Assembly (NCBI GenBank): GCA_003252455.1
Contig: QKED01000075.1
Span: forward strand, 1 to 53,850
DNA from: Gammaproteobacteria bacterium
GTDB lineage: Bacteria; Pseudomonadota; Gammaproteobacteria; Thiohalomonadales; Thiohalomonadaceae
Length of the DNA stretch: 53,850 bases
Direction: 5' to 3'
Every line of letters starts with the position of its first letter. Positions within the stretch are counted from its first letter, which is position 1. Below the pieces are notes generated by a model, which saw only the letters and a program-made list of their open reading frames with translations, ran no database searches and was not told where the DNA came from. Both the position numbers and the translations under genes were made by a program. Of this stretch, positions 97 to 43,576 are shown one piece after another.

Positions 97-1140
97 TCAA
101 TTATTTGAGATTACCTCTTCAATGCTGTTGATATTGCCGAGTTTGACGGTGAGCGCGAACTCGTCATCGATGAGGCCACTGATATCGTTGTTCTCTGTCA
201 GATGGTAGTGACGCATCAGGTCAGCCATCTCCTGGAACTCACTCTGTAGGGGTAGATAGCGGTCGAAGCGGATCCGCTCGGGCGGGTGGGTAAAGGCGTA
301 GCGCACCACATCCTGCGGCTGGTTCCAGTATTTGGATGCGACCTCGATCGCCTCATCCAGATGGGTCTTGGCCCAGTAACCGCTGCGGATGGCGGAGTGC
401 ACCAAGGTGCGCACCGCGTCCGGGTCGGAATCGATGAGGGATTGTTTGACCACCATCAGATTGCACATGAAGTAGGGCCACACCTCTTCAACATGTAGCA
501 CTTGATCAGATTCCCCGCGCATCAGCGTCTGTGCCGCGAACGGTTCGCCCACGTAGTAGGCGTCGAGTGCACCTGAGGCGAGTGCCGAGGCCATATCGGG
601 TGGGTTCATCTCAACAACCTTGACTTGGCCGTTGAGACCATATTTGTCGATCAGCTGCAGTGCACTGATATTGTGTCCCGAGTAACGCATGGGCACGGCC
701 AGTGTCTTACCCGAGAGGTCGGAGAAGGAGGTGACGCCGAGCCCGTGGCGCGCCACCAGGGTGCTCTCATGGCGGTTGCCGATATAGACTACCTTGACGT
801 CTTCGCCCTGCTGACGCAGTACGATCGAGAGTGGGGCGATCATGAAGCCCGCGTCGATCTTGCCGTTACGCAGTGCCTCGGCCATCTCGGCGAACGAGGA
901 GAATTTCAATGCCTTGAAGCGGATGCCGTCACCCTGCTTTGTCGCTTCGTCGAGGAGCGGGGCAGCAAGGTTGGTGATCACCGGCATGTAACCGATCTGC
1001 AGGATGCGGCGGCTGGCGGACTCGCCATTCAGCTGCGCATGCAGGATAGAGATGAGGAGTAGCCAAGCGAAGGCCCCGAAGCTCAGCTTCCAAGGCCTAG
1101 GGTTACGTCGGATGAGGGTGAGGAGGGCGCTAAACCGCAT
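97..1140 (-). CDS. ABC transporter substrate-binding protein, NMT1/NrtA/SsuA-like
   Basis: A 347-residue periplasmic binding protein of the nitrate/sulfonate/taurine type. An N-terminal hydrophobic segment at about residues 20-36, after a basic start rich in Arg, looks like a signal peptide or membrane anchor. The body has the usual two-lobe pattern of the NMT1 family: ILQIGYMPVITNLAAPLL near the start, a segment DAGFMIAPLSIV, then GKTLAVP and DAYYVGEPFA. Its start overlaps the end of the upstream ABC ATPase gene by 11 bases, so the two are translated together. It is the last gene of the long minus-strand signalling/transport array. The substrate cannot be read from sequence; nitrate, sulfonate or a small organic ion are all possible. 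Inference: it may deliver its ligand to the permease encoded in the same array, and could also present it to the chemoreceptor there. Confidence 0.88.
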   Translation of the reverse strand: MRFSALLTLIRRNPRPWKLSFGAFAWLLLISILHAQLNGESASRRILQIGYMPVITNLAAPLLDEATKQGDGIRFKALKFSSFAEMAEALRNGKIDAGFMIAPLSIVLRQQGEDVKVVYIGNRHESTLVARHGLGVTSFSDLSGKTLAVPMRYSGHNISALQLIDKYGLNGQVKVVEMNPPDMASALASGALDAYYVGEPFAAQTLMRGESDQVLHVEEVWPYFMCNLMVVKQSLIDSDPDAVRTLVHSAIRSGYWAKTHLDEAIEVASKYWNQPQDVVRYAFTHPPERIRFDRYLPLQSEFQEMADLMRHYHLTENNDISGLIDDEFALTVKLGNINSIEEVISNN

Positions 1141-1921
1141 AGCTCACCCCGAGCATAAAGAAGAGTTCGTCTCGCAGTGCCGCCAACTCCGGGTCGCGGT
1201 CGAGATTGCGTGGTCGACCCATTTCGAGCTTACGTACCAGTTTGACCTGAGTAGGCCGGTCACCCATTACGACAATGCGGTCACCCATCACTAGCGCGTC
1301 ATCGATATCGTGGGTGACCATGAGGGTCGTCTTGGCGATAAATTCGTGCATGTTGACCACCTCTTCGCGCATCTTCATATGCGTTAAGAAGTCAAGGCCG
1401 TTAAAGGGTTCATCCATGATGAGCATCTCCGGGTTCACTGCCAGCGCACGTGCGAGTTCTGCACGACGCTGCATGCCGCCGGAGAGTTGAGAGGGGTAGT
1501 GATTTTCAAACCCAGCGAGTTCTACCATGTTGATGAACTCCTGGATCTGTGCACTCTTCTCCTCCTCATCCTGCATATTGCGCAGGCCCAGTTCGACGTT
1601 CTCCCATACCGTCATCCAAGGTAACAGGCCGTTGTGCTGGAAGACGAAGATGATATCGGCGCTGGGTGCGGTGACCTGTCGACCGTCGATGAGGATTTGG
1701 CCCGAGCTGGGGGTATCGAAGCCGGCGATCATGCGTAGAAGCGTTGATTTGCCGCAGCCTGATGGGCCGAGGATGCAGACCATTTCACCATCTTGAAACT
1801 CAAGATTGACGTTATCGAGTACCGTTAATACCTCATCGCGGGTATTGTCCTCGCCGTTGCGTGGGCGGCGGCGGCGGTTTACGTACTCTTTGGTGATGTT
1901 TTGAATAAGGATATGGCCCAT
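1130..1921 (-). CDS. ABC transporter ATP-binding protein, SsuB/NrtD/TauB-like
   Basis: ATPase subunit of an importer. All ABC motifs are intact: Walker A GPSGCGKST, Q-loop VFQHNGLLPW, signature LSGGMQRRAELARAL, Walker B LIMDEPFNGLD and H-loop VTHD. I chose the start at MGHILIQNITKEY because it matches the usual beginning of the family; the frame is open 16 codons further upstream without family-like sequence. An unusual basic/acidic insert (RRRRPRNGEDNTRDE) lies near residues 13-27, between the first strand and the rest of the ATP-binding core, where most relatives have only a few residues. The gene overlaps the binding-protein gene downstream by 11 bases and follows the CZB gene upstream. 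With the permease it would form a high-affinity uptake system. Substrate unknown. Confidence 0.92.
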   Translation of the reverse strand: MGHILIQNITKEYVNRRRRPRNGEDNTRDEVLTVLDNVNLEFQDGEMVCILGPSGCGKSTLLRMIAGFDTPSSGQILIDGRQVTAPSADIIFVFQHNGLLPWMTVWENVELGLRNMQDEEEKSAQIQEFINMVELAGFENHYPSQLSGGMQRRAELARALAVNPEMLIMDEPFNGLDFLTHMKMREEVVNMHEFIAKTTLMVTHDIDDALVMGDRIVVMGDRPTQVKLVRKLEMGRPRNLDRDPELAALRDELFFMLGVSYAV

Positions 1922-1990
1922 GCTCAACCTGGGTACACAAAAAGGCGGGCGGGGCCCCGGTGAGATCACCGGGGCGAGAGAGTGTGGGGT

Positions 1991-2405: not shown

Positions 2406-3179
2406 TCAATGCTTGCGAATCGCCCAACTCGTCGACTCGATGTTGCCGAGCATACGCATCAACAGGTCTAGGATCACGCCGATAATGCCGATGGTGATCA
2501 TGCCGACCATGACGTAGTCCATGCGTAGTGCATTACGTGAATCGAGGATCATATACCCAAGGCCCGATTGCACGGCGATCATCTCTGCCGCCACGACCAC
2601 CAGCCAGGCGATGGAGATCGTTAAACGTAAGGCGGTAATCACGTCCGGGAGGATGGCCGGAACGATGATTTTGGTCACCACCTCTGTGCGATTGAAACAG
2701 AAGTTGGCCGCAACCTGGAAATAGACCGGACTGATGGAGCTGACAGCGACCATAGTGGCCACTACCAGGGGAAAGAAACTGGAGAGAAAGATCAGGAAGA
2801 TGGCCGGTTGATCACCGATGCCGAACCAGAGCATTGCCAACGGGATCCAGGCGAGTGGTGAAATCGGCCGCAGGAATTGGATCAGTGGGTTGAGCATGTC
2901 ACGCATGAGCAGCATGCGCCCGAGCATGATGCCAAAGGGGATGCCAAGTAACGCAGCGAGATAGAAGCCGACAGTCACGCGGTAGAGACTTGCGACCGAG
3001 TGCTTGAGCAGCGTGCCGTTGACGATCAATGACCACATGCTGTTGAAGACGGTCGTCGGGCTTGGAAACACCTGACTGCTCCAGCCGCTGAAGCTTGAGG
3101 TGACCTGCCACAACAGCAGCACGGTGCCAAAGGATAGGAGGCTGTTGAACACAGCACGTGCAGAGAAGGGCTTGAACAT
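2406..3179 (-). CDS. ABC transporter permease, SsuC/NrtB/TauC-like
   Basis: 257-residue inner-membrane permease of the nitrate/sulfonate/taurine importer type. Several hydrophobic segments are visible, including AVFNSLLSFGTVLLLWQV at the start and MITIGIIGVILDLLMRML at the end. The cytoplasmic EAA-type loop that contacts the ATPase lies around TEVVTKIIVPAILPDVITALRL, with its conserved P-x-(I/L)-x-x-G-like stretch reading PAILPDVITALR. The start lies only 2 bases after the stop of the upstream ParA-type ATPase gene, which indicates translational coupling. A single permease gene is present, so the channel would be a homodimer. The membrane part matches the family's normal length (about 250-260 aa). 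Confidence 0.93.
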   Translation of the reverse strand: MFKPFSARAVFNSLLSFGTVLLLWQVTSSFSGWSSQVFPSPTTVFNSMWSLIVNGTLLKHSVASLYRVTVGFYLAALLGIPFGIMLGRMLLMRDMLNPLIQFLRPISPLAWIPLAMLWFGIGDQPAIFLIFLSSFFPLVVATMVAVSSISPVYFQVAANFCFNRTEVVTKIIVPAILPDVITALRLTISIAWLVVVAAEMIAVQSGLGYMILDSRNALRMDYVMVGMITIGIIGVILDLLMRMLGNIESTSWAIRKH

Positions 3180-3181
3180 CG

Positions 3182-4129
3182 TTAGTCGAGACTCGCGACC
3201 ATCTTGGCCAGTTTGAGGTATTCAAGACCCGAGAGGCTGGTCTTGTCGTAGTAGATCACGGGCGCGCGCACGATCTGCGACTCCTGCAGTTTTGGGTCCT
3301 TTTCGATCGCCAGCCGCAGCATCTTTTCGTCGAAGCGTTCACTGAGTTTGTTGAAGATCACCTTGCTGGCGGTGTTATCTCGCTCGAACATGGTGGCGAG
3401 GATGCGATAGTCGATCTCCTTCCCCGTCTTCTCGGCGATGATGCGTAAGATGTTGATGATGTGGTTCACCCCGTTCACTGCCAGATAATCACATTGTGTC
3501 GGGATCAGTGCCATGTTCGAGGCCATCAGCGCGTTGATGACGAAAAACTCGATGGAGGGTGGCGTGTCGATAATGATGTGATCGAACCGCTCAGTGAGTG
3601 GTTCGAGGTGTCGTGCCAGTAGGTACTCGTAATCCTTTTCATGCCGGTGGTGCTTGGGTAGCAGCGACATGTGGTGATTCGAGGGTAGTATCCAGAGATT
3701 TGGCAGAGGATTCTTCAGGACCCCATCTAACTTGCCGTCACCCCCGTGCAGGGCGTCATAGAAGGAAGGACTATTGCGGTAGCCAAGGAGTAGTGAGAGG
3801 TTGGCCTGTACATCGAAGTCGACCAGCAGGACACGGCGCTTCATCAGCGCCAGTGAGACCGCGAGGTTGAGACATGTGGTGGTCTTGCTCACACCGCCCT
3901 TTTGATTGCAGACGGTAATGATGTGGTTGCGCCGTGCGCGCAACGATTTGCCGTGTTCATCCACCTCGTGGTCCGGGTGCAACACCAGCGGACTCTCTTC
4001 CTGTTGTGGGGGCTTGAAGACAGTGAAGGTGTGATCGCACTTTGAACACTTGACGCGAAAGACCTGCTTACTGATCGCACTCTCATCGAGGCGGAAGCGA
4101 GTCTGGCAATTTTCGCAGGTGATGATCAT
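3182..4129 (-). CDS. ParA/Soj-type ATPase with N-terminal zinc ribbon (MJ0042 type)
   Basis: 315 residues. Residues 1-40 form an MJ0042/zinc-ribbon module with two CxxC pairs (C5/C8 and C28/C31). After a short linker comes a ParA-family domain with the deviant Walker A QKGGVSKTTT, switch I LLVDFDVQANLS, and Walker B HIIIDTPPS. ParA-like ATPases in chemotaxis loci (ParC of Vibrio, PpfA of Rhodobacter) position or segregate chemosensory arrays. This gene sits directly between cheB and the ABC permease and ends 2 bases before the permease start. Inference: it places the chemosensory array or couples it to the transporter. The zinc ribbon is not part of the ParC/PpfA proteins I know, so it may give a different DNA- or protein-binding anchor. 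No ParB-like partner is in the window. Confidence 0.9.
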   Translation of the reverse strand: MIITCENCQTRFRLDESAISKQVFRVKCSKCDHTFTVFKPPQQEESPLVLHPDHEVDEHGKSLRARRNHIITVCNQKGGVSKTTTCLNLAVSLALMKRRVLLVDFDVQANLSLLLGYRNSPSFYDALHGGDGKLDGVLKNPLPNLWILPSNHHMSLLPKHHRHEKDYEYLLARHLEPLTERFDHIIIDTPPSIEFFVINALMASNMALIPTQCDYLAVNGVNHIINILRIIAEKTGKEIDYRILATMFERDNTASKVIFNKLSERFDEKMLRLAIEKDPKLQESQIVRAPVIYYDKTSLSGLEYLKLAKMVASLD

Positions 4130-4171: not shown

Positions 4172-5212
4172 TCAATGACCGCGGATACAGGTTTCAATCT
4201 GTTCGGCCAAGTTGGCCTCGTCGACCACATAGTCGACGGTACCGCGTTCGATTGCGCACTGGGTGAGGTTGGGGTAGACGCAGGTGTCAGTATCCTGAGC
4301 GATAGTGATACCACCGCCCTCCTTAATCTGGGCGAAGCCGTCGGCACCATCGTCACCCACGCCGGTCAGGAGTACTCCAATGGCGTTGCTGCCAAAGTGC
4401 TCTGACACCGATTGAAACATGGCGTTGAGGGGGCGACGCATCGCCGGGCTCATCATCAACACTGGGTTACCCGCCTCGTCGGTACTGACCGTCAAGGTCT
4501 GCTCGTTGGAGCATACGTAGCAGGTACCTGGTTCGATCCGCTGTCCGGCCTCGGCTACTACCACCTTCCAGGGGACATACTCGTCGAACTTGCTGACGAA
4601 GGAGCTTAGGATTTTAGTGGATATCTCCTGCGTCACCAAAACGGCAGCGGGCAGGTCGGGTGAGAGATGGGTAAGTAGGCGGATGACAGTGTTCGGGCCG
4701 CCGAGGCTGGTCCCGATGGCGATTACCGATTCCAGGTCTCGGTAACCGTAGGTGTTGAGCAGACTGCTCCCAGCGTGTGTATCGAGCTTGGCGCGGTGGA
4801 TGTTGTGGATCTTGATCGAGGCGGCAATCTTGACGCGATCGATAATCTGCTGTTTGGCGTTATGGATATCGGTCGAGATGGCGCCCGAGGGCTTGGGCAG
4901 GAAGTCGACCACACCCAGTCGCAGTGCCTCGAAGGTGATGCTGCCATCCTTGAAGAGCGAGCTGAGGATGACGATTGGCACCGGTGCATTGATCATGATG
5001 TGCTTTACAGCCTTGATACCGTCCATCACTGGCATGTCGATATCCAGGGTAATCACATCAGGGCGTAGCTGTTTCACCTTCTCCAGCCCTTCGAGGCCGT
5101 TGCGTGCAGAGCCTACCACCTCAATGGCGGGGTCAGAGTCCAGGATCTCACTCACCGCCTTGATCATGAAGGTGGCATCGTCCACCACGAGAACTCTCAA
5201 TTTTTCATCCAT
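4172..5212 (-). CDS. cheB: CheB-like receptor methylesterase/deamidase, catalytic His replaced
   Basis: 346 residues: a receiver domain (D11/D12, phosphoacceptor D57 in ITLDIDMP, K107 in LPKPSG) followed by a CheB methylesterase domain. The nucleophile is present: Ser169 in IAIGTSLGGP. The acid is present: Asp288 in LLTGVGDDGA. The catalytic His (H190 of Salmonella CheB, in the TQHMPP motif) aligns with Glu196 in AAVLVTQEIS, so the triad is incomplete. This is a direct reading of the DNA (codon GAG). It is encoded between cheA and the ParA gene. Inference: it may be inactive as an esterase, act as a phosphate sink or bind receptor without hydrolysis, or use a shifted general base. Family membership is certain; the activity is in doubt. 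Confidence 0.92.
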   Translation of the reverse strand: MDEKLRVLVVDDATFMIKAVSEILDSDPAIEVVGSARNGLEGLEKVKQLRPDVITLDIDMPVMDGIKAVKHIMINAPVPIVILSSLFKDGSITFEALRLGVVDFLPKPSGAISTDIHNAKQQIIDRVKIAASIKIHNIHRAKLDTHAGSSLLNTYGYRDLESVIAIGTSLGGPNTVIRLLTHLSPDLPAAVLVTQEISTKILSSFVSKFDEYVPWKVVVAEAGQRIEPGTCYVCSNEQTLTVSTDEAGNPVLMMSPAMRRPLNAMFQSVSEHFGSNAIGVLLTGVGDDGADGFAQIKEGGGITIAQDTDTCVYPNLTQCAIERGTVDYVVDEANLAEQIETCIRGH

Positions 5213-5273: not shown

Positions 5274-8200
5274 TTAACCGGCGGTGAGGCTCTTCTCAGC
5301 GGTCTGTTCTTCTGCCTCGACAGCCTTACGACCGTAGCGTTGGCGGTGCGCGAACTCCTGAAGGCGACGGACCTGTTTGCTGGCGGTCATATTAACGAGT
5401 TCGTAGATATCCAAGATCAGCGAGATACGTCCATCGCCGATAATTGTGGCGCCAGAGAAACCGCTACGCTCCTGAAGGTAATCGACCAAGGGTTTGATCA
5501 CCACCTCATCCTGTCCCATCAGCTCGTCGACCACCAGTCCGATCTGTTCAGAACCGGTATTGACGATCACCACGAAGGATTTGTCTTCACCTGCATGCTG
5601 GTCGTAATCGGCGGATAGGTTGAAGAGATTGCTCAAGCGGAAGATCGGCAAGGTGCGACCGCGTAGATGGATTACCTCTGTACCCTCGATGGTGGATGTG
5701 TCGGCCTCGTAGATGCGAAGCGTCTCCTCCACATTGGAGAGTGGAATGGTGAAGGAACCACGCCCAACGCGGACCAGCAACGCCGCGATGATGGCGAGCG
5801 TGAGAGGGATCTTCAGGCGAATTCGCGTCATGCTCCCTGGCTTAGACTCGATCTCGATGGTGCCATTGAGCTTCTCGATATTCTTTTTCACCACATCCAT
5901 ACCGACGCCGCGCCCGGAGGTCTTGGTGATGGTGGCCGCAGTGGAGAAGCCCGGGGCCATGATCAGCCGTACTAAATCGCGTTGGGTCAGACCATCGGCC
6001 TCATCGGGCTTGACCATACCACGCTCCACTGCCTTCTGGCGGATACGCGTGAAGTCTAGGCCACGACCGTCGTCGGTGACCTCGATGACGATGTGGTTAC
6101 TCTCTTGATAGGCCTCGAGAATCAGGGTCGCCATCTCATCCTTGCCTGAGCTGCGACGCTCGGCAGCGGTCTCGATGCCATGGTCCACCGAGTTACGGAT
6201 GATGTGAATCAGCGGGTCAGAGAGCTCCTCGACGATCATCTTATCGAGTTCGGTCTCCTCACCGCGAATATCCAGACGCACGCGCTTATCGGTGTTGTGT
6301 GTAAGGTCATGTATGAGGCGCGGATAGCGGTTGAAGAGCTGAGAGATGGGTAGCATGCGCACCTTCATCACGCCTTCCTGCAGCTCATTGGAGGTGCGGC
6401 TCAAGGAGGCGATCGCTTCACCTAGACGGTAGGTGAAGGCACGCATGTTCTTCAGCTCCTTCTGGTCGAGCCCTAGCTCCTCTTTGAGGTGCTGTTGAAG
6501 ACCGCGCATCTCGTTGTAGAGCTGAAAGAAATAGGAGCGATCGACGATTAACTCACCGACCTGATTCATCAGTGTGTCGATCTTGTCGGCGTCAACACGG
6601 ACACTCTTCTTGATGATCTTCTCGCCATCGGCACGCTTAGCCTTCGCCTGAGCAGACTCGCGCGGCTCGGTCGACGACTCATCGCTATCGACGATGTTGG
6701 GTTTGTTCTCGACCACTCTTTTGCCTTCGACGCTAGCCGAGGGGGAGCTCTTCTCCGCAGACTTAGGCTCCACCAATGCACGCGCAGCGGTAGGCTTGCT
6801 GGCAGCGGCATGTTCCGAGGCCGCAGGGGCCTCATCCGTCTTTGCACTTACAGCGGTCCTGATCGCCGATGTCTGACTCGCGGGTGTCGTTGGCTTTGAA
6901 GGCTTAGCGGTCGGTGCTGACCTTGGTCTATGGTCGGCAGGGGGGTGTACGAAGCTCACATCAGGTAGACTCGATAGCATTTCATCGAACACTTCGGACA
7001 GCGTTGTGTAGTCATCCTCAAGCGAAGGGATCGCGCTGCTGTCGAGGGCCTCTGTCAACTTGGTATAGAGCTGACCCTCTTCATCCATGCCCTTTTGCAG
7101 GGCAGGGGCAGGGGCGGGTGCGGCTGACGGCGCAGCGATAGGCGTGGCTGCTGTCGGCTTTACTGGCGGCGCGTGCACAGGGGTGGCAGTAGACACTTGT
7201 GACGCCATGGTGGGGCTGGGCACAGAGGGGGCTGTTGTCGCTGGTGCCTGCATGGATACTTCACCTTGAGGGAAGAACCCAAACAACACACCCATACGTG
7301 CCCTATGTATATCCAGAGCGGGCCTGCGGCCCATCGCCAGTGCCGCTTCGGCCTCGTCTAGGTCGCTGAGCCAGAGGTCGTAGATGGCGACCGGTTCATC
7401 GTAGCCCATGTAGTTGGCCGCAGAACGCAAATTACCGACCAAGTCGGTCAGCTCGGCGATTTGTTGAGGTGTTGCCCCTGTGGCCTCCATCTGCGTCAAC
7501 AGCAACTCGACCTCTTGCATGCGGTCGCGGAACTGAGTGATAAAGATGCCAAAGAGCTCACTATCGTACTCATCCTCCACGATCGGCTGAATGCCTTGGC
7601 GCGCGTTAGAGGTAGTGACACCCTGGCTCGGGGCAGATGCGAGGATATGTTCGGGTGCTGACGCCGGAGACTCTGTGGTGGCGGCTGATGAGGGGATGTG
7701 CTCCCCGTCATCGGCCAACACCGCAGATTCACTCTTGTTAGCCACGGTGGGCGCGACCGCAGCGACCAAGCCACGACTGTCGATCACCTGAGTGACGACC
7801 TCGATAAGGTCATTGACCGGCGTCTCTTCGGTCTGAGTGCGTTCGAGGTCTTCAATGAGGTGGACGATGCGGTCACGGCCCTGCATCAGCAACTCAGTAA
7901 TGGCCTGATTGTTGGTGATTTCGCCTTGGCGAAGGAGATCGAGGAGGTCTTCGAGACGGTGCGAAAGTGCAGCAACCCGCTTCACGCCGACGAACTGCGA
8001 GGCACCCTTAATGGTGTGGATGGGTCTGAAGATGTCGTTCAATATCTCCAATGTCTCAGGGCTTTCACTGAGTTTGAGGAGATCGTCCTCCATCTCTACC
8101 AGGTGTTCGTCAGCCTCAATGATGAAGTCGCCGAGCAGAGTGAGGTCGATTTCATCAGAGATAAGCTCGGGTGCGAGGCCAGCACTGGGCTCATTTTTCA

Positions 8201-9179
8201 CAGATACGTCTTGGACCTGTGGAGCAGCCGACAGTGGCTCGGGCGCAGGGGCGGTCTCACCGGCTGGTGACGAGGCGATCAAGCCCGCTGCTGCAAGCAG
8301 TTCATCGGGGAGTGTGCCGATGAGGTCGTCTGTATCCTCATCGGCATCCGCATCACCTTGCATCATCAGTTCGAGTTGCATCGGTGAGAGTGTGAGGTGT
8401 GCGGTGTCAGGGAATCGGGTGGCGATCTCGTCGAGAAAGCGGGTGTTGAGTGATGGTGCGACAGGATTGCCACGCATTGCGGACTGCATGGCGAGGTCGA
8501 GCAGGTCGAGCCACTCACTATAGACCTCTGCCAAGTCGGCATAGCCCATGTAGTTGGCCGAGTTGAAGAGGTCATGAACGGCTTCAGAGATGAGTGAGAT
8601 GAAGGTAAATGCATCCTCACCGAACTGAAGGCGCTGGTCTGCGGCGCGGATCAACGCCACTTTTTCGTGCAACTGGGTAGAAAAGACCTCGAACAGCTCT
8701 TGGTCGGCGGGCTCTGAGTAGGTCGTTGAGGTCTCTGCACTCGCGGCGTCGTCATAAGCCTCAACGTCAACCGCGGGTGACGGCGCAGTGGTATCGCCTT
8801 CGATGACGAGCGTCAGCGCATCGACCAGGTCTTCGACTTCACTCTGTTCGACCTGATCACGTTCCAACTCATCGACCAGGGCGATGATACGGTCGCGACC
8901 CGCGATGAGAATTTCGATAATCGGATCGGTGACCTCGACCTCACCGTTTCGGCAGAGGTCTAAAAGGTCCTCCATCCTGTGGGAAAGGACCGAAACCTTG
9001 CTTAGGCCGATGAATTGTGACGCCCCTTTGATGGTGTGGATCGGTCTGAAAATATTGTTCAGGATCTCCACGCTATCGCGCTGCTCATCCAGCTTGAGCA
9101 GTTCGGACTCCATCTCTTCGAGATGCTCTCTGGCCTCAACGATGAAATCGCCAAGAAGTGACAAATCGATCTCGGTCAT
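5274..9179 (-). CDS. cheA: CheA-type histidine kinase with two HPt and two degenerate HPt-like segments
   Basis: About 1301 residues, roughly twice the size of E. coli CheA. The start at MTEIDLSLLGDF has a good ribosome site (AAGGAAGA) just upstream; the open frame further upstream is not family-like. Domains in order: HPt-1 (about 1-128, H48 in HTIKGASQF); a degenerate HPt-like segment (about 160-270, aligned His202 in VHDLFNSANYMGY); HPt-2 (about 343-467, H388 in HTIKGASQF); a second degenerate segment (about 540-635, His replaced in VGNLRSAANYMGY); a long Ala/Pro/Ser linker (about 640-856); P3 dimerisation (about 857-966); HATPase (about 967-1123, with HIIRNSVDHGIE, DDGRGLD and SGRGVGMD); and the CheW-like P5 domain (about 1124-1275). 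No separate P2 domain is recognised. It feeds phosphate to the CheY and receiver proteins of this array. Confidence 0.95.
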   Translation of the reverse strand: MTEIDLSLLGDFIVEAREHLEEMESELLKLDEQRDSVEILNNIFRPIHTIKGASQFIGLSKVSVLSHRMEDLLDLCRNGEVEVTDPIIEILIAGRDRIIALVDELERDQVEQSEVEDLVDALTLVIEGDTTAPSPAVDVEAYDDAASAETSTTYSEPADQELFEVFSTQLHEKVALIRAADQRLQFGEDAFTFISLISEAVHDLFNSANYMGYADLAEVYSEWLDLLDLAMQSAMRGNPVAPSLNTRFLDEIATRFPDTAHLTLSPMQLELMMQGDADADEDTDDLIGTLPDELLAAAGLIASSPAGETAPAPEPLSAAPQVQDVSVKNEPSAGLAPELISDEIDLTLLGDFIIEADEHLVEMEDDLLKLSESPETLEILNDIFRPIHTIKGASQFVGVKRVAALSHRLEDLLDLLRQGEITNNQAITELLMQGRDRIVHLIEDLERTQTEETPVNDLIEVVTQVIDSRGLVAAVAPTVANKSESAVLADDGEHIPSSAATTESPASAPEHILASAPSQGVTTSNARQGIQPIVEDEYDSELFGIFITQFRDRMQEVELLLTQMEATGATPQQIAELTDLVGNLRSAANYMGYDEPVAIYDLWLSDLDEAEAALAMGRRPALDIHRARMGVLFGFFPQGEVSMQAPATTAPSVPSPTMASQVSTATPVHAPPVKPTAATPIAAPSAAPAPAPALQKGMDEEGQLYTKLTEALDSSAIPSLEDDYTTLSEVFDEMLSSLPDVSFVHPPADHRPRSAPTAKPSKPTTPASQTSAIRTAVSAKTDEAPAASEHAAASKPTAARALVEPKSAEKSSPSASVEGKRVVENKPNIVDSDESSTEPRESAQAKAKRADGEKIIKKSVRVDADKIDTLMNQVGELIVDRSYFFQLYNEMRGLQQHLKEELGLDQKELKNMRAFTYRLGEAIASLSRTSNELQEGVMKVRMLPISQLFNRYPRLIHDLTHNTDKRVRLDIRGEETELDKMIVEELSDPLIHIIRNSVDHGIETAAERRSSGKDEMATLILEAYQESNHIVIEVTDDGRGLDFTRIRQKAVERGMVKPDEADGLTQRDLVRLIMAPGFSTAATITKTSGRGVGMDVVKKNIEKLNGTIEIESKPGSMTRIRLKIPLTLAIIAALLVRVGRGSFTIPLSNVEETLRIYEADTSTIEGTEVIHLRGRTLPIFRLSNLFNLSADYDQHAGEDKSFVVIVNTGSEQIGLVVDELMGQDEVVIKPLVDYLQERSGFSGATIIGDGRISLILDIYELVNMTASKQVRRLQEFAHRQRYGRKAVEAEEQTAEKSLTAG

Positions 9180-9356
9180 CTGATTCTTCCTTCGGTCCTG
9201 TGTGTCAGGCCTGATACCCCATCGTCTGGCCAAGAGGGGCCTGACGAATGACGGGCGCTCGGTCAGCCCTGGTGGTCTCAGGCGCTGACCCACTAACTTG
9301 CCCCAGAGCAACTGTGCTCAAAGGGCCCTCGACTACGCTCGCGTATAGTAAGGCGA

Positions 9357-9716
9357 TTACGCCTGGCTACTATCGATGAGGTCGAGGATCTCTTTCGACT
9401 TATGTTTGTTCACGAAGCCGACAGCGCCAAGGCTCTCGACCTCAGAGCGGTATCTGTCTTCATCGAGATTTGAGAGGAAGAGGATCTGCGCCTTACTGTC
9501 GATCTTGAGGATCTCTTTGGCGGTCGTGATCCCATCCTTGCCGCGCATGGTGATATCCATGGTGACCAAGTCGGGCTTAAGTTTCGAGTAAAGATCGATG
9601 GCTTCATCACCGTCCTTGGCCTCGCCAACGATGATATGCCCAGGCGGGTTGAGGACCCGGGAGATCATCTTCCGCATCATGGCGGAGTCATCGACTATCA
9701 GAATGCGCTTGCTCAT
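9357..9716 (-). CDS. CheY-like single-domain response regulator
   Basis: 119 residues forming a lone receiver domain, the standard size for CheY. The acidic pocket is present (ILIVDDSAMM), the phosphoacceptor Asp lies in VTMDITMRGKDG, the switch Ser is in LFLSNLDED and the conserved Lys in GFVNKHKSKE. The Lys is not followed by the usual Pro (NKHK in place of xKPx). There is no output domain, so it acts by protein contact. Its gene lies between cheW and cheA with 177 bases before the cheA start. CheA is the natural kinase. Because no flagellar motor or pilus gene is in the window, the target (flagellar switch, type IV pilus, or another CheA-fed output) cannot be told. Confidence 0.92.
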   Translation of the reverse strand: MSKRILIVDDSAMMRKMISRVLNPPGHIIVGEAKDGDEAIDLYSKLKPDLVTMDITMRGKDGITTAKEILKIDSKAQILFLSNLDEDRYRSEVESLGAVGFVNKHKSKEILDLIDSSQA

Positions 9717-9754: not shown

Positions 9755-10288
9755 TCATGCTTCTTGGGCACGCCCGTTGATGAGTGTTTTATTCACGTCT
9801 TTCAACTGCTTCATCTCCTCGATCAGGAGAATCCTGTTGAAATCGAGCAGGATCAGCAGTTTGCTATTGATGTCGACGACACCACGGATGTACTGATTTT
9901 CAAGCCCCTTGACGATGATGTCGGGGGCATGTTCGATGGCGCTCTCTTCGATTTTGAGCACCTCGGTTACCTTATCGACGATGAAGCCGGTCACACGACC
10001 GCCAATATCGAGAATAAGGATCCAGTTGTGTTCGCCTGACTTCCTCTCCTTAAAGAGGTTGAGGCGCTTGCGCAGGTCGATCACCGGGATGATGTCACCA
10101 CGGAGATTGATCACGCCCTCGACAAAATCGGGCGAGTTGGGTACAGCCGTGATGCTGACCTGGCGGATGATCTCCTGCACCATGAGGATGTCGACGCCGA
10201 ACAGCTCTTTGCCGATCATGAAGCCGACCAGCTGCATCAACTGTTCTTTATCAGAATCGTCTCGGCTGGATGAATATGAACCTGCCAT
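9755..10288 (-). CDS. cheW: CheW coupling protein
   Basis: 177 residues with a single CheW domain. Recognisable family segments include QLVGFMIGKELFGVDI, the core VEGVINLRGDIIPVIDLRKRL and the RGVVDINSKLLILLDFNRIL strand near the end. It tethers CheA to the receptor tip in chemosensory arrays. It is slightly longer than E. coli CheW because of a charged/Ser-rich N terminus (about 16 residues) and a C-terminal extension after the last strand. It is encoded directly downstream of the chemoreceptor gene and upstream of cheY, which matches its role as the link between receptor and kinase. Confidence 0.95.
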   Translation of the reverse strand: MAGSYSSSRDDSDKEQLMQLVGFMIGKELFGVDILMVQEIIRQVSITAVPNSPDFVEGVINLRGDIIPVIDLRKRLNLFKERKSGEHNWILILDIGGRVTGFIVDKVTEVLKIEESAIEHAPDIIVKGLENQYIRGVVDINSKLLILLDFNRILLIEEMKQLKDVNKTLINGRAQEA

Positions 10289-10380: not shown

Positions 10381-13300
10381 TCAGATCTTGAACTGCGCCA
10401 CCTGTTCGTTGAGGTGCTTAGACTGCGTCTGCAGGTCGTCGGTAATGCTCACCACGGTACCGGCACCCTCCACCGTCATCTGCGCGGTTTCAGCAGTTTC
10501 CTTGGCGATGGTCTGTACACGGGCTGAACGTTGTGCCTGTGCGGAGGTCATGTCGATCATCTCTGCCACACGAGAGACGATACCCTTCATCTCTTGGCCC
10601 ACCACGATGGCACCCTGGTTGGCCTCCATCACCGCGCGGTTGATTCGCTTGGTCTCCTCCAGCAGAGTGGCGAGCGCCTGTTCTGCTGCCACACGACGAG
10701 TACCCTGCTCACCCGCCATTGCACCGATCTGTTCGGCCAAGGTGTTCAGCTGTTGCATGAGCCCCTGCACCTCGGTGGAGCTGGTGGCCAGGATGGTTGC
10801 GGTTTTGGCGATCTGCTCGATGGCGAGCATGTTCTCACGACCGCCCTCGTCGATCTTGATCAGCGCCTGCTGTGAGGCGTCGGTCAGGTGGGTACCCTCA
10901 GCCACGCGGCTGGTGGAGTCCTTGATGAGCTGGGTAATCTCTTTCGCGGCCTCGGAGGAGCGTTGTGCCAGTTTACCCACTTCGTCAGCAACCACCGCGA
11001 AGCCCTTACCGTGCGCACCCGCACGGGCGGCCTCAATGGCGGCATTGAGTGCGAGGAGGTTGGTCTGCTCGGCGATTTCGGTAATCACACCGATGATCTC
11101 AGAGATCTGCTCGGAGGACTCGGAGATGGCGCGCATACCTTCCACGGTGGCGGCCACTGAGTTGCGGCCCTCGTGTGCGGCTTGTAGTGAGGCCTGACCG
11201 AGCTCGGTGGCCTGGGTCACTGCGCGACGCATCTCGTCCACAGCGGTAATCATGCCGTTAACGGACTTGGATACGGTCACCACCATCTCACCCTGACGGC
11301 GGGCGGTATCGGCCACACGCCCACCGGTTTCACCCATTTCCTTCACACGGGCCATGGTCTCGTGCACCTCGCGGCCCTGGGCGTCTGCGGAGTTGGACAC
11401 TTCGCCCATTGCGCGGAGTAGGGCGGCAATACCCTCATTGGAGCGCTCAGCGGCTCTACTCTGGCCCTGGGTGGCCTCGGCGACCTTGGCGGCGGTGCCA
11501 CCCATTTCGGTAATCACGCTCTCGGAGGTGGTTGCACGCTCATACTGCAGCTGTGCACGTTCACGGTTTGCACCTGCACGTGTGGCCACGTTACCGGCAC
11601 TACTCTGTACCTGGCCTGCTGCGTCGCGTACCACAGAGAAGGAGGAGCGAATCACACGGATCATCTCGTTGAACGCTGAGGACATACGGCCAATTTCGTC
11701 CTTGGAGTTGACCTCCACCTCAAGGGTAAGGTCACGGTTCTCAGCGATGTTACGAACGGTCTCTGCCATGTGCAGAATGGGGCGAGCCAGTGCGCCAGCC
11801 ACGATAAGGGCGATGATGATCACGGAGAGCACAACGGCGATCGCCAGGCCGTACATGATGTACTGGTACTCGGCCACGGCAGCGAGCGCCTCTTCGGTGG
11901 GCAGCTCAATGATGATACCCCACTCGAAATCGACCCCGAATAGTTCCTTCATACCGATGTCGGAGTAGGACGCCAGTACGGGCATGCCACGGTAGCTGAC
12001 CGAGTAGTCGGTGCCCTCTTTCTTGGCCAGTGCGGTGGCGGCACCCTTCGTATCGACCAGGGTACGCAGCGTAGTGCTCTCATTGGAGAAGCGCGAGTCA
12101 GAGCGCATGGTCTTGTCAGGGCCGACGAGGAAGGCCTGACCGGTCTGACCCAAACCCGTGCTCTCCTGCATGACGGAGTTGATGTTGGCCGTCGAGAGGG
12201 AGAGGGCCATCACGATGTTGACGTCGCCGCGGGCATTGAGCAGAGGTGCGGCCATGAACATGGCCGGCTTGCCATCGGCCGGTGCGTACTTCTCCATATC
12301 GACAATGCCGAACGACTTGGTCTTCATCACCTCGCGGAAGAGGCGGGCGAGGTTGGTATTGCTGAAGCGGCCGTTGACCAGATTGGTGTTGTATTCGGCG
12401 TTGTTCGCCACTGAGTAGAAGACATAGCCGCTTGGATCGATCAAGAGTACGTCGTAGTAGCCGAACGCATTGTTGTAGTAGGTCAGGTAGTCGGAGTTGG
12501 TGCCAACGACCTCAGGGGAGATGTTCTCGACCAAGTTACCCGTAGCCAGGATGGCCCAGTTAAGACCCTTTACCTTGATGGGGGTATACACGAAGAGCTC
12601 CATCTGCCCCGTGGTACCGAGGGAGATCTCGTCACCGGCTTGGCCGGAGAGGGCCTTCTTCGCTGCTTCTGCGCCGTAGGGGTCGCCGAGGTTGCCGCTC
12701 TTCACCACGCGTGTAGAGCGCAAGGTGACGGTGTTGTCGACCATACCGACCAAGAACGATTCGGTACCTGCCTTCATGCCGGTGCGGTCTTGGGCGATGG
12801 CATTGATGTCATCGGGGCGTAACTGGAAGGCCGCAACGCCCCAGAAGTAACCATTGGAGTCGATGAGTGGCGTGCCGATAAAGGCCGATACGCGCTTCTC
12901 CGGCTCGTAGTAGCTGTAGTCTTCGATGGCGATGTCGTAGCGCGCCTTGCTGAAGATACGGCTGATGCCCGTACTGCGGAGCTTGCCAGAGTTGACGTTC
13001 TCACCCAGGTCGTTGCTCTTGCCGACGCTGTAGATGATGTCGCCATTGGCGTCGATGAGGTAGACATCGTCAAAGCCGAAGTTCGCAGCAAAGGCCTCGA
13101 AGCCAGCGTTACGACGGGTAAGCAACTGCTTGTAGGCCTCGCTGTTGAGGCCCTCTTTGAATGCCTCACCAAAGAGCTTGATACCATCGGTGAAGCGCAG
13201 GTTGGCCTGTACGTCCTCCATTACGCGGTAGCGGGTCTCGAAGTAACGCTCGATCTCCTGCCGCTTGAGGTGGATGGCGGTATCCAGCTTGCGGTAACCG

Positions 13301-13560
13301 TCGTTGCGGAAGGTGGAGAGCGTCTGTTGTAGAACGCCGATGTCGTCACCACGCTCGCGGAGGTAGTCTGAAATCTGCTTCTTTTTAATTTCGCGCTGTG
13401 CCTTTGCCTGATCGAGTGCCGCTTGTGCAAGTGCAGTCGAGGAGCGATCCACTGCAACCAAACCGCTGACTGCGAAGGGCACCAACCCCACGAGCAAGAA
13501 GAAGATGATGAGCTTGGCTCGAAGACTGAGGTCTCGATACCAGGTCATTAATGCATTCAT
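10381..13560 (-). CDS. Methyl-accepting chemotaxis protein with duplicated periplasmic sensor module
   Basis: 1059 residues, nearly twice the usual receptor length. TM1 is at about 17-37 ([21 protein letters not shown]) and TM2 at about 568-592. Between them lie some 530 periplasmic residues made of two similar Cache-like modules: about 160-345 ([15 protein letters not shown], then [19 protein letters not shown]) and about 368-560 ([15 protein letters not shown], then [19 protein letters not shown]). A HAMP domain follows at about 592-645, then the cytoplasmic hairpin with the tip [20 protein letters not shown]. No C-terminal NWETF-like CheR tether is present; the protein ends NEQVAQFKI. It is the only receptor in the array, upstream of cheW. 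The ligand is unknown; the transporter's binding protein is one candidate partner. Confidence 0.95.
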
Positions 13561-13621
13561 AGTACCCTCCTTACAGGATCCCCTTGGTGGTGTGATACCG
13601 AGCCGTAGCTTAGTTGCATGG

Positions 13622-14683
13622 TCACGCTGTCCGCTGTGTTGAGATTGACTGGTTGAAATGATGGTTAATGGTAGAAGCTATTTTCGAGTCTGCCTGAATG
13701 ATATGTGCCCGTGTGTTGTCCATGGCGTGGCGGGGCATCTGTTTACTCAGGCAACTCTTCGGATCTTGGATGATGGCCATCCCCCCCATGCGCAGTACCT
13801 CTTCTAGCCCTTCGGAGCCATCGTCTCCTGAACCGGAGAGGAGCACGCCGATGCTGTTCTGCATCAGCGTGTCGGCGATGGAGAAGAGGATGCGATTGAT
13901 CGAACCCTTGAGGGTGGCGAAAGGGGCCGGGTGCACGTGTAGCGCGAGTCGACCCGCACGCTGCTGCAGGGTGACATAGTCATCGCCACTGGCGAGATAA
14001 CAGCTGCCAGCGGAGAGCTCCTCGCCATCGCGCGCACGGCGTACAGGCATGGGCGAGAAGTCATCGAGATAGCGAATAAAGGCGTCTACATGCGCCGAAC
14101 TCTCGTAGAGCACGATGATGTAGGCAGCCGGAAGGTTCGGATTGAGCCGCGGCAGGATCTTGAGGAGAGAGCTGTATGCGCCCTCGTGGCCACCCATGGC
14201 GACCAGGTGGGTGGGTGTTCGGTAGGTCTGCCCAGGGCGGGAGGTAGGGCGCAGGCGAATATAGCGCAGTACGTCGAGTTCAATGTTGGCAGCCCAGTGT
14301 ACCTTCTGGCGGATCTCCGCTTCGCGTCCGAGCAGGCTACTGTCGTCGAGACGGTTTGGCTTGGGCAGAAAGTCGACTGCGCCGTAGCGTAGGGCATCGA
14401 AGGTGAGGCGCTCGCCATCACGGGTCAAGGTGCTGAGCATCACCGTGGGTGTGGCACACTCGATCATGATGTGCTTGAGCACACGGATGCCATCCATCTC
14501 GGGGATATTCACATCGAGTGTGACGACATCGGGTTTGAGCGCCTTGATGCCGATGAGTGCATCATGCCCGGTGGCCGCCTCACCGACAATTTCGATGCCA
14601 GGGTCGCGCTCGAAGATTGCCCGTATCGCCCCCCGCAAGAGCGCTGAGTCGTCGACGACAAATAGTCTACGGGGTTGATTCAT
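13622..14683 (-). CDS. CheB-like protein lacking catalytic Ser and His
   Basis: 353 residues with the CheB layout: a receiver domain (D11/D12, phosphoacceptor D57 in [10 protein letters not shown]108 in LPKPNR) plus a methylesterase-like domain. The nucleophile position of the GxSxGG motif reads [10 protein letters not shown], putting His166 where Ser164 of Salmonella CheB sits. The catalytic His position falls on Tyr193 ([10 protein letters not shown]), or on Glu194 if one residue is shifted. Asp288 in [10 protein letters not shown] remains. Two of three triad residues are therefore missing, so methylesterase activity is unlikely. The receiver domain looks intact. It lies between the DUF4388-REC gene and the receptor gene, next to the partner it would bind. 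Inference: a phospho-regulated, non-catalytic receptor-binding protein, or an enzyme with changed chemistry. Confidence 0.9.
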
Positions 14684-14754: not shown

Positions 14755-15537
14755 TCACGCCTGGTTCAGGTCTAGGTAGTGCGCCACCTTCTCCATCAAG
14801 GCCTGAGGTGAGAAGGGCTTCGTCAGATATTCGTCAGAGCCGGAGACCTTGCCTTTAATCTTATCAAACAGGGTATCGCGAGATGTGAGAATAATCACTG
14901 GTATGTCAGCAAAATCCTCACGTTTACGGATGTGTGAAAGGATCTTATAGCCATCGATACCGGGCAGGATCAAGTCGAGCAGCACCAAGTCTGGCTTTTC
15001 ATTGTTGAGTTGAGCCAGCGCCTCGAAGCCATCTTTCGCCTCTACGACAGTGAGCCCACGCTGACGCAGGGTCAGGGTGATCACCTTGCGCGAGGTGGTG
15101 CTGTCCTCTACGACGAGCACTTTCTTGGCAACGCTCTGCTCCGGTGCGGGGGCGATAGGGGCCGCTGCAGCAGCAGTCGGCGCCGTGCGGTTCTGCGCCT
15201 GACCACCGTCTGTCTCACTCTGAGAGAGAAAGTTGATGATGTCGTCGGTCGGGGGCAAGGGGGCCTTGCTATCTCCGCTCTGCCGGTCATGCAGGATGAT
15301 GTTGTCTGTAGAGAAGTTGTAGCGGGCACGTTTGATGCGCCGGATCAGGGCTAGCGCAGCGATACCATGCTTCGCTTTGTAGCCGATCTCGACGATGTTG
15401 CCACTGTAAAGAATGATCTCGGCCCAGTGCTTCTCTTCAGTGACGATGTACATAGTGCCGCTCTCACCGTCGGCGATGAGGCGCTTGAGAACCTGTACGA
15501 TTTCACTAAATGGGACCAGGTTGTGTTCCTGCTGCAT
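14755..15537 (-). CDS. Response regulator with N-terminal DUF4388/PatA-N-like domain and C-terminal receiver
   Basis: 260 residues. Residues about 1-105 (FSEIVQVLKRLIADGESGTM, then IILYSGNIVEIGYKAKHGIAA) resemble the DUF4388/PatA N-terminal domain found in gliding and signalling proteins. An Ala/Pro linker follows, then a receiver domain from about residue 138, with VLVVEDSTTSRK, phosphoacceptor in VLLDLILPG, and the KPFSPQ Lys. The order (sensor-like first, receiver last) is the reverse of most output regulators. It is the first gene of the minus-strand array, so its promoter region is the 15538-16050 stretch. It is a likely CheA target. The domain name is tentative; the receiver is certain. 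Confidence 0.85.
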   Translation of the reverse strand: MQQEHNLVPFSEIVQVLKRLIADGESGTMYIVTEEKHWAEIILYSGNIVEIGYKAKHGIAALALIRRIKRARYNFSTDNIILHDRQSGDSKAPLPPTDDIINFLSQSETDGGQAQNRTAPTAAAAAPIAPAPEQSVAKKVLVVEDSTTSRKVITLTLRQRGLTVVEAKDGFEALAQLNNEKPDLVLLDLILPGIDGYKILSHIRKREDFADIPVIILTSRDTLFDKIKGKVSGSDEYLTKPFSPQALMEKVAHYLDLNQA

Positions 15538-41346: not shown

Positions 41347-43566
41347 CTAGTCGGTGCTGCAGTGCGGCAGCAGTAGATTCTGGCGACGCGCGCGCGCCTC
41401 CAGCAGTTTCCACAGCACCACTGGGATCTGGGTCAGCGGGAAGCCGTCGATGCGCACCATCTCCACGGCCTCCAGCGCACGCGCGGCGAAGCTGTGGGGT
41501 AGGGCGTCGAAGGTCCCCTCCTCGCCGCAATAGTCGCCCGCACCGAGCAGCTCCAGGGGGCGGCCGTCGGGGGCGAGCAGCTCCAGGGCACCACTCACCA
41601 CGAGGTTGAGGGCATTGCGTGCCGGGGCCGGTGCCACCTCTCCGGGGGCGAGGCTGAAGGTGTGGCAGTGGTCGGCCATCTGGCGCAGGGTGGCGTGGCC
41701 GATGCGTTCGCCGAAGAGGCGCGAGCGGCGCAACTGGGCGATACGCTTGACCTGTTCGCGCACCCGTTCGAGCATCCCCTCGCTCTCCAGGGTGCGGCTG
41801 ACCATGTGCAGCGGCAGGCGCAGCAGCGCGGCGTGGCTCACGGCACGCCAGGAGCCGGGCAGTGGGGTGTTATCGAAGAGCGCCTGCTCGCCGATCAGTG
41901 CGCCGGTGGCGTAGAGGGTGCGCAGCGCGTTCTCGCTCTGGATGAACTCCAGGGTGCCGGTGAGTAGCAGATAGAGGTGCTCTGGGCGGCTGCCACGCCG
42001 CAGCACGATGGCCCCGGCGTTGAACTCCATGAGCGGGGCGTTGAGCAGCGCCTCGATGCGGTAGTCGGGCGACTTGGGCAGGTAGGTGCGCAGGTAGCGC
42101 AGGGCGCGCTGGCGGCGATAGTCGCGCTCACTGGGGATGAGGATATCCTCGGCGCCGAAGGTGGCGCTGGAGCCGATCTCACGCTCGGCATCGGTCAGCG
42201 GGCGGGCGATGTGGGCCAGGACCAGGCGCCCGGAGGCGTCACCGGCGAAGTCTTCGGCGCGACCATGGATGGCTCCGCCGCCGATGTCGAGCTTCTTGAT
42301 GTCGGCGGGGGTCTGGTAGTCCACCTTGATGCGCTTGAGAAAGGCCTCGGAGATGGGGGGATGGCGGTGGCTGTTACTGGCCATTTTCTCCAGCACCGGT
42401 AGCGCGGTGAGGTCGGCCCAGTGGCCGTAGCTGCGATAGCCGTCGGCCCCCAGGGCGCGGAACAGGAACAGGTTGTTCTCCACCGGATGCGGCGAGTAGA
42501 TGGGCTTCACCTCCAGCCCGTCGCACTCGTTCCAGCGGTCGAAGTCGAGGTCGCGGATGGTGAAGAACTGGGCGAAGCGGCGCTCGTCCATGCCGGTGAG
42601 GGCGCTCAGTTTTTTCGTCACCGAGTGGCGTACCAGGCGCGTGGCGTAGTAGCGCACGCGCTGGCCGGTGCGCATCAGGGTGGCGAGCCCGGCGAAGTGG
42701 TCGTCGTGGGCGTGGGTATGGAAGATCCCCTCCACCTCGGAGAGGTCGATGCCCAGGTGCGAGAGGGTCTGCTCGATGTTGGGCGGGGCGTCGACCAGAA
42801 AGCAGCGCCCCTGAAACATCAGCACGCTGGACATGCTCGGGCGGTTGATGTCCCAGCCGTCACCCTCGCCGGTGTGGATGATGGAGAAGTAGGCGCGCGA
42901 CACCTCGTGGTGCTGGAGCGAGTAGGGCAGCTCGTAGGTGCTCCCCTCCGGGAGGTTGAGGTCGACCATCTGGCGGTCGTCGCGCAGGCGGAACTCGAAG
43001 CGGTTGGTGCCAAGACGGCGCACGCTGAGTCCCGGGCGGAGGGTGACCGGCTCCTGCTCCACGCTGAGGGTGTCGATATAGTCTTGTGGGGCGCGGATCT
43101 CGCCGAAGGCGAAGGCGAGTTTGACGCTCATCATCTCCTGCGCCAGCCCCGCCTCGACACCGGCATCGAGCAGCTCCTGCAGGTCGAGTAGGCCATAGTT
43201 GCCGCGATGGATGTAGTCGAGCTGACGGCGGATCTTGGTCGGGGTGCCGATGAGCAGTGGGCGGCGGCCGTAGTTGGGGTGTCCGGGGATGAGCATGCCT
43301 TGGCGATAGAGCATCTGCAGCACGGGGAACTCACTGAGGTTGGCCAGCGTGCCGCTCTGGATCGGCAGTTCGGAGAGGAGGATGGCATTGGGGCCGCTCT
43401 CGATCTCCCGTCCGCCGCGCAGCTCTTGGCGGATGAAGCCGCGCCGGGTCAGGTGCTTGACCACCTCCGCCGGGCAGCCACAGAGGATGCGCAGGTCGAA
43501 CTCGGGGACCTCCAGCCAGTGGACGCCAGGGGTGACCTGATAAAGCTGCATCGCGTTTTGCGCCAT
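41347..43566 (-). CDS. Metallo-beta-lactamase-fold protein with two C-terminal cyclic-nucleotide-binding domains
   Basis: 739 residues from the ATG of MAQNAMQLYQV, which has AAGGAGAC upstream. Residues about 1-240 are an unusual N-terminal part (no known domain recognised; it contains RRPLLIGTPTKIRRQ). The MBL core has the metal motif HTHAHDDHFAGL (HxHxDH at 283-290) and further conserved His residues (SHRHPP, GGAIHGRAEDFAGD). After residue about 510 there are two cNMP-binding-like domains: NAGAIVLRRGSRPEHLYLL with IGEQALFD, and CGEEGTFDALPHSFAARA, where GE(E/Q) and the RAA-type Arg resemble the phosphate-binding cassette. It lies 10 bases from the MscS gene. Inference: a cNMP-controlled hydrolase. 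The substrate is not identifiable. Confidence 0.85.
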   Translation of the reverse strand: MAQNAMQLYQVTPGVHWLEVPEFDLRILCGCPAEVVKHLTRRGFIRQELRGGREIESGPNAILLSELPIQSGTLANLSEFPVLQMLYRQGMLIPGHPNYGRRPLLIGTPTKIRRQLDYIHRGNYGLLDLQELLDAGVEAGLAQEMMSVKLAFAFGEIRAPQDYIDTLSVEQEPVTLRPGLSVRRLGTNRFEFRLRDDRQMVDLNLPEGSTYELPYSLQHHEVSRAYFSIIHTGEGDGWDINRPSMSSVLMFQGRCFLVDAPPNIEQTLSHLGIDLSEVEGIFHTHAHDDHFAGLATLMRTGQRVRYYATRLVRHSVTKKLSALTGMDERRFAQFFTIRDLDFDRWNECDGLEVKPIYSPHPVENNLFLFRALGADGYRSYGHWADLTALPVLEKMASNSHRHPPISEAFLKRIKVDYQTPADIKKLDIGGGAIHGRAEDFAGDASGRLVLAHIARPLTDAEREIGSSATFGAEDILIPSERDYRRQRALRYLRTYLPKSPDYRIEALLNAPLMEFNAGAIVLRRGSRPEHLYLLLTGTLEFIQSENALRTLYATGALIGEQALFDNTPLPGSWRAVSHAALLRLPLHMVSRTLESEGMLERVREQVKRIAQLRRSRLFGERIGHATLRQMADHCHTFSLAPGEVAPAPARNALNLVVSGALELLAPDGRPLELLGAGDYCGEEGTFDALPHSFAARALEAVEMVRIDGFPLTQIPVVLWKLLEARARRQNLLLPHCSTD

Positions 43567-43576
43567 TCTCGTCTCC

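Follow-up and report, generated by a model that had tools for sequence, protein, structure and literature searches.

Triad-less CheB homologues as candidate phospho-regulated pseudo-methylesterases in a gammaproteobacterial chemosensory cluster

Results

Gene cluster and genome context

The window, i.e. the whole stretch of 53,850 nucleotides that was analysed, carries a cluster of eleven genes on the minus strand in the following order: a protein with a receiver domain (REC), a first CheB homologue (CheB-a), a methyl-accepting chemotaxis protein (MCP), CheW, CheY, CheA, a second CheB homologue (CheB-b), a ParA-type ATPase, the permease and the ATPase of an ABC transporter and an NMT1-like protein. 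The features and the evidence for each are as follows.

14755..15537, minus strand: response regulator with REC at aa 140-251; Pfam matches nothing in the N-terminal half (conserved neighbour, five class genomes)
13622..14683, minus strand: CheB-a (P0001), pseudo-CheB of 353 aa, REC + CheB_methylest (ORF, Pfam, alignment, AlphaFold2)
14345..14662, minus strand: CheB-a receiver domain, aa 8-113 (Pfam PF00072); phospho-acceptor D57 at 14513-14515 (codon)
13670..14203, minus strand: CheB-a methylesterase-fold domain, aa 161-338 (Pfam PF01339; VIA-align)
14186..14188, minus strand: CheB-a His166 (CAC), position of the nucleophile Ser164 (alignments and codon)
14105..14107, minus strand: CheB-a Tyr193 (TAC), position of the catalytic His190 (alignments and codon)
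13820..13822, minus strand: CheB-a Asp288 (GAT), the retained Asp286 (alignments and codon)
10381..13560, minus strand: methyl-accepting chemotaxis protein, dCache + HAMP + MCPsignal, 1059 aa (Pfam)
9755..10288, minus strand: CheW (Pfam)
9357..9716, minus strand: CheY, single receiver domain (Pfam)
5274..9311, minus strand: CheA, two Hpt stretches, start codon uncertain (ORF, Pfam)
4172..5212, minus strand: CheB-b (P0002), second non-canonical CheB, Ser169-Glu196-Asp288 (alignments and codons)
3182..4129, minus strand: ParA-type ATPase with N-terminal zinc ribbon (domain matches; conserved among cluster genomes)
2406..3179, minus strand: ABC transporter permease (domain matches)
1130..1969, minus strand: ABC transporter ATPase (domain matches)
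97..1140, minus strand: NMT1-like substrate-binding protein (domain matches)

We examined a DUF4388 domain as a candidate for the REC protein at 14755-15537 and found no support for it: only REC was matched by Pfam at E values up to 1, and the copies of two of four neighbours gave matches below the cut-off. Elsewhere in the window, the gene at 41347-44455 (minus strand) encodes a protein of 746 aa that combines a metallo-beta-lactamase-like part with two cyclic-nucleotide-binding stretches, and at its start it overlaps with the final part of an MscS-type channel gene. At 45522-53839 (minus strand) there are two very long ORFs of 1359 and 1417 aa, the first with eight DUF11 stretches and surface-protein-like.

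The genome from which the window derives is 99.72% complete. Its other three CheB-domain proteins all carry Ser-His-Asp, two MCP matches were found and there was no match to FliM. Contig 51 holds a second chemosensory cluster that contains a CheR; judging by gene order, we take it to be Pil-Chp-like.

Active-site residues and predicted fold

We aligned CheB-a with the CheB of Salmonella (1a2o). Both motifs align without gaps and the single gap lies six residues upstream of the His position; the alignments with E. coli CheB give the same triad columns. CheB-a fails the test for the Ser164-His190-Asp286 triad and reads His-Tyr-Asp. This first copy had been recognised in an earlier analysis of the letters (the sequence-only reading) as a CheB-like protein with Ser and His replaced, and both sets of alignments and the codons confirm it. 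The His position, given there as Tyr or Glu, is Tyr: the column shows Tyr in all five orthologues of the class and His in five of the eight from another phylum. The receiver domain with D57 had been called intact, and indeed the phosphorylation residues (acidic pair, D56, S/T and K) are present, reading DDDSLK in the window copy. The gene also adjoins the receptor gene at 10381..13560, as had been stated.

Pfam matched Response_reg with 72.6 bits (cut-off 30.2) and CheB_methylest with 120.3 bits (cut-off 24). The NCBIfam cut-offs were missed, with 235 of 293 bits for NF001965 and 218.4 of 342 for NF009206. As a control we scored five canonical CheBs, all of which passed NF001965 (434.6-496.1 bits) and four of which passed NF009206. 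On the plus strand over 13622-14683, frame 1 is interrupted by stops. The AlphaFold2 model of CheB-a, computed from 30 sequences, has a mean pLDDT of 94.6 and a pTM of 0.91. It matches solved CheB structures over nearly the full length (6ymz with Z 40.3; 1a2o with Z 40.0 and an rmsd of 3.1 over 343) and in the methylesterase domain (3sft with Z 29.5 and rmsd 1.7; 1chd with Z 28.4 and rmsd 1.9). CheB-a is an intact protein with a confidently predicted fold and without two of the three catalytic residues.

The second homologue, CheB-b (4172-5212), had been overlooked, as had the absence of a CheR gene from the cluster. Ser and Asp are kept and Glu stands in place of His190. Both NCBIfam cut-offs were missed (NF001965: 286.4 of 293 bits; NF009206: 252.1 of 342), and a single-sequence structure prediction gave no usable fold for this protein (pLDDT 34.9).

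Orthologues and distribution of the triad

The 11-gene order is also present in four further genera of the same class (G013, G318, G307 and G120); in G307 the ParA protein was confirmed as a cluster member with 48% identity. None of the ten cluster CheBs in these five class genomes has Ser-His-Asp. CheB-a reads HYD in two and AYD in three of them, and CheB-b reads SED in one, TED in three and TDD in one. Across all 13 CheB-a orthologues we observed SHD five times, AYD three times, HYD and SYD twice each and RWD once. The SHD copies belong to G981, G811, G1085, G1121 and G1040a, the last on a 3.9-kb contig. The loss in CheB-a is therefore lineage-specific rather than ancestral and, judged by these residues, the five copies show that CheB-a is not non-catalytic across its whole range. 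Whether the substitutions are conserved among orthologues, a question that had been raised with the first description, has a divided answer: all five class copies are without the Ser-His pair, whereas 5 of 13 overall keep Ser-His-Asp. Orthologues with Ser and His had also been named as a sign of a recent mutant. Such orthologues do exist (5 of 13), but the loss is shared by five genera and the window copy is thus not a recent mutant.

The Ser position varies among the eight CheB-a copies without Ser-His-Asp (Ala in three, His in two, Ser in two, Arg in one) and hence no new catalytic residue is conserved. The "changed chemistry" proposed by the sequence-only reading did not hold up for CheB-a, and we rejected a conserved replacement chemistry in this protein. 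For CheB-b all 15 orthologues read [ST]-[ED]-D (two SED, nine TED, one TDD and three SDD). The receiver residues are intact in all 13 CheB-a and all 15 CheB-b proteins.

The other phylum is that of G763, a Desulfobacterales MAG, in which the cluster was found whole or in part in G763, G1003, G981, G811, G1085 and G1121. The G763 cluster lies on two contigs and its ABC genes have the opposite orientation; for G1121 the ParA gene was read separately. The REC gene upstream of CheB-a was not seen where the contig continues (G981, G811). At 12852-14241 of the stretch L199, from the same phylum, genes for a HAMP membrane protein and a TauE/SafE exporter separate ParA from the ABC genes, an arrangement that hints at a sulfonate or sulfite link. 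Relatives in this phylum often have three CheB paralogues (a, b and c). All eight CheB-c proteins have Gly in place of the Ser and are without the His, and one keeps the Asp column; the eighth is a CheB-c-like protein of G1040 (L202, GAD), which was read separately and stands outside the CheB-c alignment, tree and conservation set. The CheB-c row of G763 comes from an incomplete frame that lies at the end of a contig. According to Pfam, CheB-c has the architecture DUF4388-REC-CheB in the two copies scanned (G1085, G1003). The CheBs of L048 (SAF and GQS) stand outside all a/b/c counts.

Five genomes of this phylum show a second arrangement of three tandem CheB-like genes together with CheA, and with CheY in three of the five stretches. 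All 15 CheBs are without Ser-His-Asp. L212 (7436-17457), L213 and L214 combine the degenerate tandem triplet with both CheY and CheA. In L212 these genes lie beside HDOD, a Ras/Arf-like small GTPase, Roadblock and a PilB-like T2SSE/MshEN ATPase (all Pfam); the GTPase is presumably MglA-like. Nearly identical starts of the GTPase are present in L213 and L214.

The substitutions are not a chance finding: of 107 CheB rows (E. coli counted twice), 91 read Ser-His-Asp; these rows were gathered mostly by similarity to CheB-a and are hence no unbiased survey. Fifteen of the 16 remaining rows come from the lineage of the window and one is a 1707-aa fusion (L120). CheB-a was found in 2 of 20 genomes of the same family and order. 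In the draw from the class, 4 of 369 genomes reached at least 460 bits, followed by 264.7 bits (the window's own CheB-b) and then by 247 and below. The draw from the phylum gave 1 of 398, i.e. the window genome only, and the draw from the phylum of G763 gave 7 of 395 with at least 390 bits. In these last three draws five candidates were scored per genome.

Trees and conservation

In a quick tree the 15 non-canonical CheB rows lie on one side of a branch with support 98; this tree was built without the Ser-His-Asp CheB-a orthologues, L120 and rows outside 300-560 aa. A second quick tree, in which some branches are long, supports CheB-a with 97, CheB-b with 88 (96 with three b' rows), CheB-c with 85 (100 with five c' rows) and the 26 canonical rows with 99. 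For this tree CheB-c proteins of more than 420 aa were trimmed to their last 420 residues and ORFs were filtered for coverage. The CheB-a proteins of G1003 (Tyr) and G981 (His) are sisters with support 98, and position 190 has thus switched between His and Tyr repeatedly or has undergone a reversion.

The mean pairwise identity of the methylesterase domain is lower than that of REC, with 0.46 compared to 0.55 for CheB-a and 0.44 compared to 0.68 for CheB-b. We then computed the ratio of conservation between the active-site loops and the rest of the domain. For 22 canonical CheBs this ratio is 2.00, and 3 of 5000 random window triples were as high. CheB-a reached 1.26 (708 of 5000; 12 rows, without the diverged G1040b, RWD), the class by itself giving 1.20 and the other phylum 1.23. 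For CheB-b the ratio is 1.54 (74 of 5000), or 1.40 (241 of 5000) for the 12-row core without the three SDD copies, and for CheB-c it is 1.58 (59 of 5000; seven rows). In CheB-a the old pocket looks as if it matters less, its active-site loops being no clear hotspot of conservation, and the pockets of CheB-b and CheB-c may have been re-specified.

CheR and receptor methylation

The CheR model found no match in any of the 13 core-cluster stretches (12 genomes), several of which stop at contig ends, nor in the five stretches of the second arrangement; both control stretches were detected. Elsewhere in the genome CheR is present in 9 of the 12 cluster-bearing genomes. It was not detected genome-wide in the drafts of G307 (93% complete), G1003 and G1121. 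CheB-a reads HYD and CheB-b TED in G307, yet in G1121 CheB-a has Ser-His-Asp. The window genome has three CheR-domain genes, any of which could methylate the cluster receptor. Away from the cluster, G013, G318 and G120 each have a normal Ser-His-Asp CheB close to CheR, and these lineages can therefore keep the triad where it is used. The related clusters of G778, G816 and G881 contain CheR together with an SDD CheB-b and with CheB proteins that read AYD and are about 600 aa long (architecture DUF4388-REC-CheB in the single copy scanned); the presence of CheR thus does not preclude degenerate CheBs.

The cluster MCPs are long-armed, with a C-terminal arm of about 211 residues compared to 165 in Tar with its tail. 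We counted relaxed E. coli-type methylation sites and found none in the window MCP (shuffled mean 1.91), whereas other cluster MCPs have five (G318), four (G307), three (G1085) or one (G013 and G1003). The motif is equally absent from the MCPs of the CheR-bearing clusters of G778 and G816, and for this reason we dropped the loss of methylation sites as proof of methylation-independence.

Discussion

We propose, with a probability of roughly 55%, that CheB-a and CheB-b are phospho-regulated pseudo-methylesterases of an array that does not depend on methylation, and that they exert their effect through stoichiometric binding, competition for phosphate or both. The proposal starts from the lost triad, the intact receiver residues and the conserved cluster with its paired CheBs and without CheR, as read from the sequences, and from a fold that the model predicts to be kept. 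These CheB homologues, which fail the catalytic test, probably still work as CheA-driven response regulators. The two-Hpt CheA would pass phosphate to CheY and to the receivers of both CheBs, which would open the two-domain protein in the manner of ordinary CheB. The exposed methylesterase face, presumably free of esterase and deamidase activity, would only bind, its partner being the receptor bundle, CheA or CheW, and/or the CheB receiver would draw off phosphate. The resulting effect on signalling would be a stoichiometric and quickly reversible feedback with no stored methyl mark. As the loss of the triad is common to relatives and the clusters show no CheR, the receptors may be tuned by reversible binding and not by chemical marking. 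The earlier suggestion of a phospho-regulated non-catalytic binder of the receptor is partly supported: in all five genomes of the class the receiver residues of CheB-a are intact and the catalytic pair is missing, and the protein may bind the receptor, but five orthologues elsewhere keep Ser-His-Asp.

Several observations weigh against the pseudo-methylesterases. Five of 13 CheB-a proteins have the full triad, and the pocket ratio is no higher in the phylum to which they belong (1.23). CheR is encoded elsewhere in most of the cluster-bearing genomes, and degenerate CheBs occur together with it in G778, G816 and G881. Finally, all 15 CheB-b copies combine a hydroxyl residue, an acidic residue and Asp, which would not be expected from free decay.

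The other readings are all less probable. The receivers of CheB-a and CheB-b might merely compete with CheY for phosphoryl groups, the methylesterase fold being a passenger. The intact receivers (28 of 28) agree with such a phosphate sink, and in other CheA systems receiver domains have been described as phosphate sinks (PMC10542144). As may be the case for CheB-a, the receiver there may take phosphate without a catalytic output; however, that sink is a domain of CheA, whereas here we have separate two-domain CheB proteins. One might expect a passenger domain to disappear, yet the methylesterase domain is kept at a mean pairwise identity of 0.44-0.46 across two phyla and the old active-site loops of CheB-b (1.54x) and CheB-c (1.58x) retain raised conservation. 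We consider a sink on its own unlikely.

It is improbable that a residual or alternative esterase activity persists through other residues and acts on methyl groups placed by a CheR of another locus. Asp286 is kept, five CheB-a orthologues have the full triad and CheR genes exist at other loci in 9 of 12 genomes. On the other hand, the nucleophile is Ala or His in all five class copies and CheR is undetected in G307, whose CheBs read HYD and TED. Slightly more doubtful still is an altered chemistry, with CheB-b (Ser/Thr-Glu/Asp-Asp) as a different sort of enzyme that has the inactive CheB-a for its regulator or partner. Sedolisin peptidases have a Ser-Glu-Asp triad, the triad positions of CheB-b follow one pattern in 15 of 15 copies and its pocket is more conserved than the rest of the domain; but Ser/Thr and Glu/Asp swap among the orthologues and CheB-a offers no conserved replacement residue. 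The idea of a recent mutation or a pseudogene confined to one strain, or of a faulty assembly, has nothing in its favour beyond the substitutions themselves and was rejected as highly implausible given the intact 353-aa frame, the conserved operon, the confidently predicted fold and the four other genera likewise without Ser and His.

CheB-a resembles the known CheBs of Salmonella (1a2o) and P. atrosepticum (6ymz) in its two domains, its receiver residues, its predicted fold (Z of about 40 for both) and an operon with CheA, CheW, CheY and MCP, and differs from them in the replaced Ser164 and His190 and in a cluster without CheR. The closest precedent concerns the other enzyme of the pair. According to PMC7666581, the CheW-CheRlike protein of Treponema is without key CheR residues and removal of its CheR-like domain leads to fewer and smaller arrays. 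As with CheB-a, a degenerate member of the adaptation pair is kept in the array (F2 in spirochaetes). There, however, a CheR-like domain is fused to CheW, whereas here the CheB side is degenerate, the receivers are intact and the role is putative. CheR with an N-terminal TPR has been suggested to be inactive on the basis of four sequences (PMC3447774); this is likewise a subfamily in which the catalytic residues of an adaptation enzyme are not conserved, but of CheR and not of CheB. A loose analogy for CheR loss acting on CheB may be seen in evolved E. coli lines without cheR, in which the mutations of cheB concentrate around the catalytic and phosphorylation pockets, although these lines still needed CheB activity (PMC12270135). 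Our literature search, which covered open-licence papers in PubMed Central, found no description of a natural pseudo-CheB family of this kind.

Methylation by CheR and CheB is the textbook memory of bacterial chemosensing. More tentatively than for the two proteins themselves, and with the odds rather against it, we suggest that in at least two phyla this adaptation might have been replaced by two to three pseudo-CheB paralogues (a, b and c), whose pockets would be re-specified for phosphorylation-gated binding and whose adaptation would be non-covalent; one branch would be tied to an ABC transporter and another to genes for a small Ras-like (MglA-like) GTPase, Roadblock and a PilB-like ATPase. 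An array family with intact receivers, mostly triad-less CheBs and three drafts without a detected CheR makes it testable which role a CheB has when it is unable to cut. On the CheB side, a triad-less CheB would match the inactive CheR-like protein found in the arrays of spirochaetes.
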